From: an uncultured Verrucomicrobiota bacterium
GTDB lineage: Bacteria; Verrucomicrobiota; Verrucomicrobiia; Limisphaerales; UBA1096
DNA: 34,702 nt
Assembly (NCBI GenBank): GCA_913030945.1
Contig: CAJWEP010000008.1
Span: 1 to 34,702, forward strand
Direction: 5' to 3'
The first letter of the stretch is position 1. Each line of letters starts with the position of its first letter. Shown piece after piece: positions 14,630 through 23,855 of this stretch. The translations under genes were made by a program, and so were the position numbers. Below the pieces are notes generated by a model that saw nothing but the letters and a program-made list of their open reading frames with translations, ran no database searches and was not told the origin of the DNA.

Positions 14630-15585
14630 GCAAAGCCACTCGCAACTCCGGGCCGGACGAACTTGAGTTGATCTTGCGGCTAACGGCCAAGCTGCCGGTT
14701 GGCGACTCGGTGGTCGTTGGCGCGGGCGACGATTGCGCCGTGATCGACGCCGGAGTACCCGGCCTGTGGCAGCTTCACAAGACCGACGCCGTGGTCAAGG
14801 GCATCCATTTCACCAGTGACTCCGATCCACGGCAGGTCGGCCACAAGGCGCTTGGCCGCGCAATGAGCGACATCGCCGCGATGGCCGGCACGCCGCGCTG
14901 GGCCACGGTCACGCTTGGCCTGCCTGACGGCTTCGACGCCCAACGCATCGAGTCGGTTTACGACGGCATGGCCGCCTTGGCCCAGCGGCACGAGGTGTCG
15001 CTCGTCGGCGGCGAAACGGTGGCCAACCCGGATCGGCTTTTCATCGGCGTGTCGCTCGTCGGCGAGGTGGAGCGGGACAAATGCATCCTGCGCAGCGGCG
15101 CGGCCGTGGGCGACGGCGTGTGGGTCACCGGCGAACTGGGCGGCTCGATCGCCGGGCATCATCTCGCGTTCACGCCGCGACTGGCCGAGGCGCGCTGGCT
15201 TGCAGCCCGTTTTAAGCCCAGCGCCATGATCGATCTCAGCGACGGCCTGGCTGGCGACCTTGGCCATCTGCTCAACAAAGCCAGCGCCGGCGCCGAGTTG
15301 CTCGAGTCCGCCTTGCCGATCCGGCGCGAGGCCCGGCTGCGCGCCCGCGAATCGGAGGCCGCCAAGCCGCCACTGCTGGCCGCGCTGACCGACGGCGAGG
15401 ATTACGAGCTATGTTTCACGCTTGGCCAGGGCCAGGCCGTCGATCTGCTCGACCGGTTCAAACAGGAATTCCCCGACACGCCGCTGAGTTGCGTCGGCAA
15501 AATCGTCAGGCAGCCGGGACTCAAGATCCGCCAAAAAACTGGCCTCATGGAGATCCCCACCCGTGGACACGTTCATTTCCAATAG
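14626..15585 (+). CDS. thiL: Thiamine-monophosphate kinase
   Basis: ThiL phosphorylates thiamine monophosphate to the cofactor thiamine diphosphate. The protein belongs to the PurM-like ATP-binding fold. Diagnostic segments are GAGDDCAVID (metal and ATP binding, about 27-36), KTDAVVKGIHF, GHKALGRAMSDIAAMAG, LVGGETVANP and MIDLSDGLAGDLGHLL. The end is LTDGEDYELCFTL. Length is 319 residues, as expected. The ATG at 14626 overlaps the CPBP stop (ATGA), and the C-terminus overlaps the start of tsaE by 23 bases. The gene is rich in partial versions of the palindrome (for example CGCTTGGCC at 14849 and 15419) but has no perfect copy. Confidence 0.95.
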   Translation: MSKATRNSGPDELELILRLTAKLPVGDSVVVGAGDDCAVIDAGVPGLWQLHKTDAVVKGIHFTSDSDPRQVGHKALGRAMSDIAAMAGTPRWATVTLGLPDGFDAQRIESVYDGMAALAQRHEVSLVGGETVANPDRLFIGVSLVGEVERDKCILRSGAAVGDGVWVTGELGGSIAGHHLAFTPRLAEARWLAARFKPSAMIDLSDGLAGDLGHLLNKASAGAELLESALPIRREARLRARESEAAKPPLLAALTDGEDYELCFTLGQGQAVDLLDRFKQEFPDTPLSCVGKIVRQPGLKIRQKTGLMEIPTRGHVHFQ

Positions 15586-16062
15586 CCCGGCAGATACCTT
15601 CGAGCTGGGTCGGCGCTGGGCGGCCGAACTGCGCCCCGGCTGGGTCGTCGGCCTCATCGGCGACCTCGGCACCGGCAAGACGCAACTCGTCAAGGGCCTC
15701 GCCGCCGGGCTGGGAGTCACGGGCACCGTCACCTCGCCGACGTTCGCGCTGTTGCAGGAGCACAGTGGCGGCGCGCTGCCGCTGGCGCACATCGACCTGT
15801 ACCGGCTGGAAAGCCAGCAGGAAATCGTCGGCGCGGGACTCGAGCATTATCTCACATTGCCCGACGGCGTCGCCGCGGTCGAGTGGTTTGAGCGTTGGCT
15901 CGGCAGCGACTGGCAGCCGGGCCAGCCGCTGCCGGGCCAGCTCCATGTCGCCTGGCGCCGGACCGGGTCCATCCGGCCGATGGCCAAGCGCTGCGGCTCG
16001 TCCGGTTTTCAGACGAGGGCGAAACCAGGCGGAGGATCGTTCATGAAGATTTTGGCCATTGA
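15563..16062 (+). CDS. tsaE: TsaE, t6A-synthesis ATPase, with probable internal frameshift
   Basis: TsaE is the P-loop ATPase that supports TsaB/TsaD in making the t6A modification at position 37 of ANN-decoding tRNAs. It shows Walker A GDLGTGKT (33-40), TSPTF (57-61), HIDLYRLE and AVEWFERW. In the initial frame translation does not stop but runs straight into TsaB, giving an apparent 370-residue fusion. However, from about 15975 the -1 frame reads ADGQALRLVRFSDEG and ends in a TGA at 16060-16062. This looks like a genuine TsaE C-terminus, whereas the continuing frame gives low-complexity GSSGFQTRAKPGGGSF. I infer a single-base loss between about 15950 and 15985, either a sequencing or assembly error or a real mutation. 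The end given is that of the shifted frame. The start is GTG 15563, inside the end of thiL. Confidence 0.75.
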
Positions 16063-16675
16063 GTTTTCGTCCGACCACCGGAGCGTCGCGGTGTTGGACG
16101 GCGGGCGGCTTCTCGCGGAGCAGACAGTCACTGAGGGCCGGGACACCGCCGCGGTTGCGCTGATCGAGTCCGCGCTTGGCCAAGCCAAAGTCGGGCGGTC
16201 GGAGATAGAGTGCATCGCTGTCGGCCTCGGCCCCGGCTCTTACACCGGCATCCGTGCAGCGATCGCGCTGACACAGGGTTGGCAACTTGCGCTTGGCGTG
16301 AAGGTGTTGGGCGTGGACAGTTTGGAGGCCCTGGCCAGGGGCGAGCAGGCCGGCGGGCGTCGTGGCGAAGTCACGCTGGCGGTGGACGCCCAGCGCGGGG
16401 AGTTTTACCTGGCCCGTTTCGAGTTGGCCGCCGACGGCATCCGCAGCATCGAGCCGACGCGCTTGGCCAAGCGGGAGGAATACGAGTCACTGCTCACCGC
16501 TGGCCGGCCCGTCATCGGTCCCGGCTTGGGCGACACATTTCCCGCTGCTGAACACGTTGGCTGTTTGGCCGCCGGGCAGAACGATTTCGTTGAGGCCTCC
16601 CAACTCGAGCCAGTCTATCTCCGGCAGGTCGATTTCGTTAAAGCACCACCCCAGCGCGAGATTCCACCTGTCTAG
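16043..16675 (+). CDS. tsaB: TsaB, t6A-synthesis partner protein
   Basis: TsaB (YeaZ) is the inactive ASKHA-fold partner that dimerises with TsaD (Kae1) for transfer of threonylcarbamoyl to tRNA. Family features are MKILAIEFSS at the start, AVGLGPGSYTGIRAAIAL (about 59-76) and LGVDSLEALA. The ATG at 16043 has a strong ribosome-binding site, GGAGGA at 16031-16036, six bases upstream. This supports a separate TsaB protein although the frame is continuous with tsaE upstream. The 210-residue length is typical. A RimI domain, sometimes fused at this end, is absent. The gene ends convergently with the NIL-domain gene, with a gap of about 15 bases. A perfect palindrome encodes TRLAKR about two-thirds of the way through. 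Confidence 0.92.
   Translation: MKILAIEFSSDHRSVAVLDGGRLLAEQTVTEGRDTAAVALIESALGQAKVGRSEIECIAVGLGPGSYTGIRAAIALTQGWQLALGVKVLGVDSLEALARGEQAGGRRGEVTLAVDAQRGEFYLARFELAADGIRSIEPTRLAKREEYESLLTAGRPVIGPGLGDTFPAAEHVGCLAAGQNDFVEASQLEPVYLRQVDFVKAPPQREIPPV
16460..16473. repeat. Iterated palindrome inside tsaB
   Basis: Perfect CGCTTGGCCAAGCG, read as RLAKR in a variable part of TsaB. Confidence 0.9.
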
Positions 16676-23811: not shown

Positions 23812-23855
23812 GGGGGGAGTTTCTACCCTTGGCTGGCCAAGCGAATGCCCTTCGC

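Follow-up and report, generated by a model that had tools for sequence, protein, structure and literature searches.

The apparent TsaE-TsaB fusion of an uncultured Verrucomicrobiota bacterium is very probably a frame break caused by a 26-base insertion in tsaE

TsaE and TsaB both belong to the machinery that makes the t6A modification of tRNA in bacteria. A single open reading frame in the DNA of an uncultured Verrucomicrobiota bacterium raises the question of whether this organism makes the two as one protein. The frame lies in a stretch of 34,702 nucleotides that was analyzed as a whole (hereafter the window); it occupies 15563..16675 on the + strand, starts with GTG and encodes 370 aa with no internal stop. 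PF02367 (TsaE) covers residues 7-112 (E 6.6e-30) and TIGR03725 (TsaB) covers residues 163-354 (E 2.9e-36), which bears out the continuous TsaE-TsaB reading that had been proposed from the sequence alone. All profile scores exceed their curated cut-offs: 104.1 bits against 26.6 for the TsaE P-loop ATPase domain (PF02367), 87.2 against 60.1 for TsaE (TIGR00150), and 125.4 against 69.3 for TsaB (TIGR03725), the last along profile positions 1-212 of 212 from tsaB's own start. The 370-aa frame is more than a chance open reading frame, as each half corresponds to a genuine gene product. The source genome holds one copy each of tsaE and tsaB and one clear tsaD. Nevertheless, we consider it very probable (about 0.92) that tsaE and tsaB are separate, overlapping genes here and that the "fusion" is a frame break produced by a 26-base insertion, which arose by mutation or through an assembly fault. 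The features of the locus are as follows.

14668..15585 (start approximate), + strand: thiL (thiamine-phosphate kinase), upstream of tsaE; TIGR01379, E 4.6e-68, and the list of open reading frames.
15563..15930, + strand: N-terminal and ATPase part of tsaE, intact, in frame 0; PF02367, E 6.6e-30; 70-89% identity with congeners over residues 1-124.
15931..15956, + strand: 26-base insertion breaking the tsaE frame; missing in 15/15 congeners; MAFFT alignment, gap columns and a repeat check.
15958..16062, + strand: true 3' end of tsaE in the -1 frame, PDRVHPADGQALRLVRFSDEGETRRRIVHEDFGH and then TGA at 16060-16062; about 50-71% identity with congener TsaE tails.
16031..16036, + strand: tsaB ribosome-binding site GGAGGA, seen in the sequence within the 3' end of tsaE.
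16043..16675, + strand: tsaB, which encodes 210 aa from an ATG of its own and on which the insertion has no effect; TIGR03725, E 2.9e-36.
16043..16062, + strand: out-of-frame tsaE/tsaB overlap of 20 bases, kept in 80/85 relatives.

The last 23 bases of thiL likewise form the start of tsaE (15563-15585), read in a different frame; thiL, tsaE and tsaB are three consecutive genes, each overlapping the next.

The fused protein was used as a query against 58 genomes, from the genus up to the order. Within the genus, 16 of 21 genomes matched it, the window's own genome included, and tsaE and tsaB were adjacent yet separate genes in 15/15 congeners. Congener TsaE is 157 aa long (158 aa in one), ends in (H/Y)ED(F/I/V)(G/S)x and reaches its stop 20 bases into tsaB. 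The congeners together with 74 loci from further genomes gave, after removal of redundancy, 85 non-redundant pairs in which both genes were readable, and the genes were separate in every one. A relative with the same fused frame would have spoken for an established fusion, and none was found (0/85). The overlap is exactly 20 bases in 80 of these pairs, with TsaE ending in (H/Y)EDFGx, and the remaining five (L030, L084, L106, L108 and L125) have a 4-base ATGA overlap. No single frame spanning TsaE and TsaB occurred among the matches listed for the 179 genomes with matches in an order-wide search, a listing in which a fusion should stand close to the head. The 78 genomes with matches in a phylum-wide search likewise held no such frame, and a literature search of limited breadth found no description of a TsaE-TsaB fusion. 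In one class member (L135), tsaE and tsaB appeared as one match; this is not a fusion, as two stops lie inside it. The suspicion that the fusion is only apparent, and the product of a frameshift, therefore agrees with the two overlapping genes seen in all relatives examined.

The closest database records are marine Verrucomicrobiota metagenome-assembled genomes (MAGs), such as Pedosphaera sp. ALOHA_A2.0_41. As a separate observation, four MAGs (L072, L082, L122 and L128) carry tsaE-tsaB pairs of this order's type under the titles Methylacidimicrobium fagopyrum, Akkermansia muciniphila (two) and Candidatus Omnitrophota; these titles, or the binning, may be wrong.

Alignment with the TsaE of relatives placed the frame change precisely. 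In the junction DNA alignment (MAFFT) against 14 of the 15 congeners, the sole gap corresponds to a 26-base insertion at 15931-15956, and the 15th congener carries an additional codon at another point. The placement may slide to 15936-15961, as GCCGG flanks both ends. TsaE homology runs in frame 0 through residues 1-124 up to 15934 and resumes from 15958 in the -1 frame with residues 124-157; since 26 leaves a remainder of two on division by three, the insertion gives the -1 shift that is observed. The break thus lies close to where it had been predicted, whereas the predicted cause, a single base missing between 15950 and 15985, gives way to 26 extra bases. Within the insert, positions 15932-15941 repeat 15917-15926 (CCGGGCCAGC), a 10-base copy from 15 bases upstream, and the inner 21 bases begin with GCCAG and end with CTGGC, a 5-base inverted repeat. 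The copy and the inverted repeat would fit replication slippage or a template switch. No exact template of at least 11 bases was found elsewhere in the window. In the source genome, a 29-mer of the insert had no other copy at up to three mismatches, and a 19-mer gave scattered weak matches only. A chimeric join within the source genome would be expected to leave a second copy of the insert, and the assembly contains none.

The last part of tsaE is preserved downstream of the insertion. As the sequence-only reading had recognized, the -1 frame encodes a true TsaE C-terminus, PADGQALRLVRFSDEGETRRRIVHEDFGH, with its TGA at 16060-16062, and relative to the tsaB ATG at 16043 this stop gives the same 20-base overlap as in relatives. 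Of the six window-private bases 3' of the insertion, five occupy third positions in the -1 frame (binomial 0.018), which indicates that this sequence kept evolving as a TsaE tail once the lineages had diverged. The Pfam match does not separate fused from intact TsaE, as it reaches no further than 104-105 of 128 even in congeners, and a sequence profile against the PDB also ended short of the tail; the tail was therefore examined by structure. An AlphaFold2 model of a congener TsaE (mean pLDDT 93.7) matches the solved Bacillus subtilis and Thermotoga maritima TsaE over practically the whole length and places strands at residues 134-142 and 148-156. Congeners encode this C-terminal beta-hairpin in the frame of the rest of the gene; here, judging from the model, the last two beta-strands are encoded solely in the -1 frame, and the fused frame substitutes an unrelated linker for them. 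The tsaB gene keeps its own start, as had been noted, with GGAGGA (16031-16036) six bases upstream of the ATG at 16043; counted from this ATG, its product is 92% identical to that of the nearest congener over 210 residues.

The open frame between the two genes carries little weight by itself. In 5/15 congeners, the tsaB frame is likewise open over the 28 codons required upstream of its ATG, so the continuity is unremarkable and a weak coincidence. Given the substitutions that follow the -1 frame, the replaced strands, the retained tsaB start and ribosome-binding site, and this coincidental continuity, it is unlikely that the fused frame represents the actual product.

Overall, we propose that tsaE and tsaB, with their 20-base overlap, are probably translationally coupled and that a 26-base insertion in the variable tsaE linker, just ahead of the last beta-hairpin, shifts the frame by -1 relative to the gene's own tail. 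Frame 0 then happens to coincide with the tsaB frame, with no stop between them, so that the pair reads as a single gene. TsaB should still be translated from its own ATG. The insertion may have arisen recently by mutation in the sequenced strain, or it may be a metagenome assembly fault, and such a fault might consist of a wholly spurious insertion or of a true 27-base in-frame insertion from which one base was lost. If the insertion is real, the cell would make a TsaE that lacks the C-terminal hairpin, along with some TsaE'-TsaB read-through protein. The gene is single-copy and usually important, and a real insertion disrupting it is unlikely to be kept for long unless TsaE remains functional in its truncated form; the loss of the TsaE tail in such a gene favors either an artefact or a mutation of very recent date. 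In our judgement, which was not computed, a real 26-base mutation is a tentative choice with the same claim as an in-frame insertion that lost a base, a wholly spurious insertion is somewhat unlikely, and the small remainder goes to a functional fusion or other causes.

The loss of a single base at 15950-15985 therefore survives only as a second event on a 27-base in-frame expansion of the linker, a sub-case of the frame break rather than an addition to it, and in that form it may be entertained without being favored. The length of TsaE varies most at this linker across the order, so in-frame insertions are tolerated there and a 27-base expansion is not absurd; one-base losses are also a common sequence error. 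However, the alignment with 14/15 congeners has no gap other than the insertion, and this account needs two events rather than one. Moreover, no homopolymer longer than four occurs within 15863-16062, and every other comparable gene in the 34.7-kb window keeps one frame relative to congeners, which indicates that indels are not a general feature of the contig. A candidate second frameshift, in a histidine kinase near 23815, was rejected; its upstream part overlaps an opposite-strand neighbor and is merely an extension of the open reading frame.

A genuine, functional TsaE-TsaB fusion made by the insertion in this species is very unlikely. The frame is fully open, and the two proteins work in one complex: TsaE of T. 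maritima sits on TsaDB and contacts TsaB (PMC11648230). However, no relative examined is fused, both final TsaE strands are replaced by an unrelated linker, recent substitutions respect the -1 frame, and the locus retains an intact -1 tail, 20-base overlap and tsaB ribosome-binding site. Slightly less credible still is the specific version in which this marine Verrucomicrobiota species has fixed the insertion and makes a working fusion that lacks the last hairpin and keeps the ATPase tethered to its partner. Programmed frameshifting from frame 0 to the TsaE tail would require the -1 shift that is seen, yet we regard it as highly improbable, as no slippery heptamer (XXXYYYZ) lies within 15863-16062, in line with the first impression of the sequence, and TsaE occupies one unshifted frame in 15/15 congeners.

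A separate feature of this DNA is a 14-base palindrome, CGCTTGGCCAAGCG, one copy of which lies inside tsaB. There are 476 copies in the 3.41-Mb genome (reversed control, 1), and the window has 12 (positions 238, 615, 4974, 8880, 10075, 12198, 13855, 16460, 20228, 20700, 23798 and 31432) against 0.0008 expected from dinucleotides. All 21 genomes of the genus contain it, in 1 to 1174 copies (control, 0-1). We take it to resemble the cyanobacterial HIP1 palindrome, and a literature search for a highly iterated palindrome in Verrucomicrobia found nothing.

Reading the locus as a frame break keeps a false gene-fusion annotation, and hence a false link, out of databases, and the strict 20-base tsaE/tsaB overlap, kept across the order, is a useful annotation check for both genes. 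The 370-aa frame is best classed as a frame break in one sequence and not as a new architecture, and both of its domains are ordinary family members. As in the ordinary bacterial tsaE-tsaB pair (TIGR00150 plus TIGR03725), both domains pass the curated cut-offs, and the genes follow thiL in the same order and direction as in relatives, with the same 20-base overlap geometry; the difference is the 26-base insertion that interrupts tsaE shortly before its end. Domain fusions of the t6A type are known: YrdC-like and Kae1-like domains are joined in TobZ and HypF, and MJ1130 is a Kae1/Bud32 fusion (PMC9654439). The present frame resembles them in holding two t6A-synthesis-related domains in one open frame. 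However, TobZ, HypF and MJ1130 are established proteins, whereas the fused frame described here is confined to a single sequence, in which it abolishes a conserved portion of TsaE.
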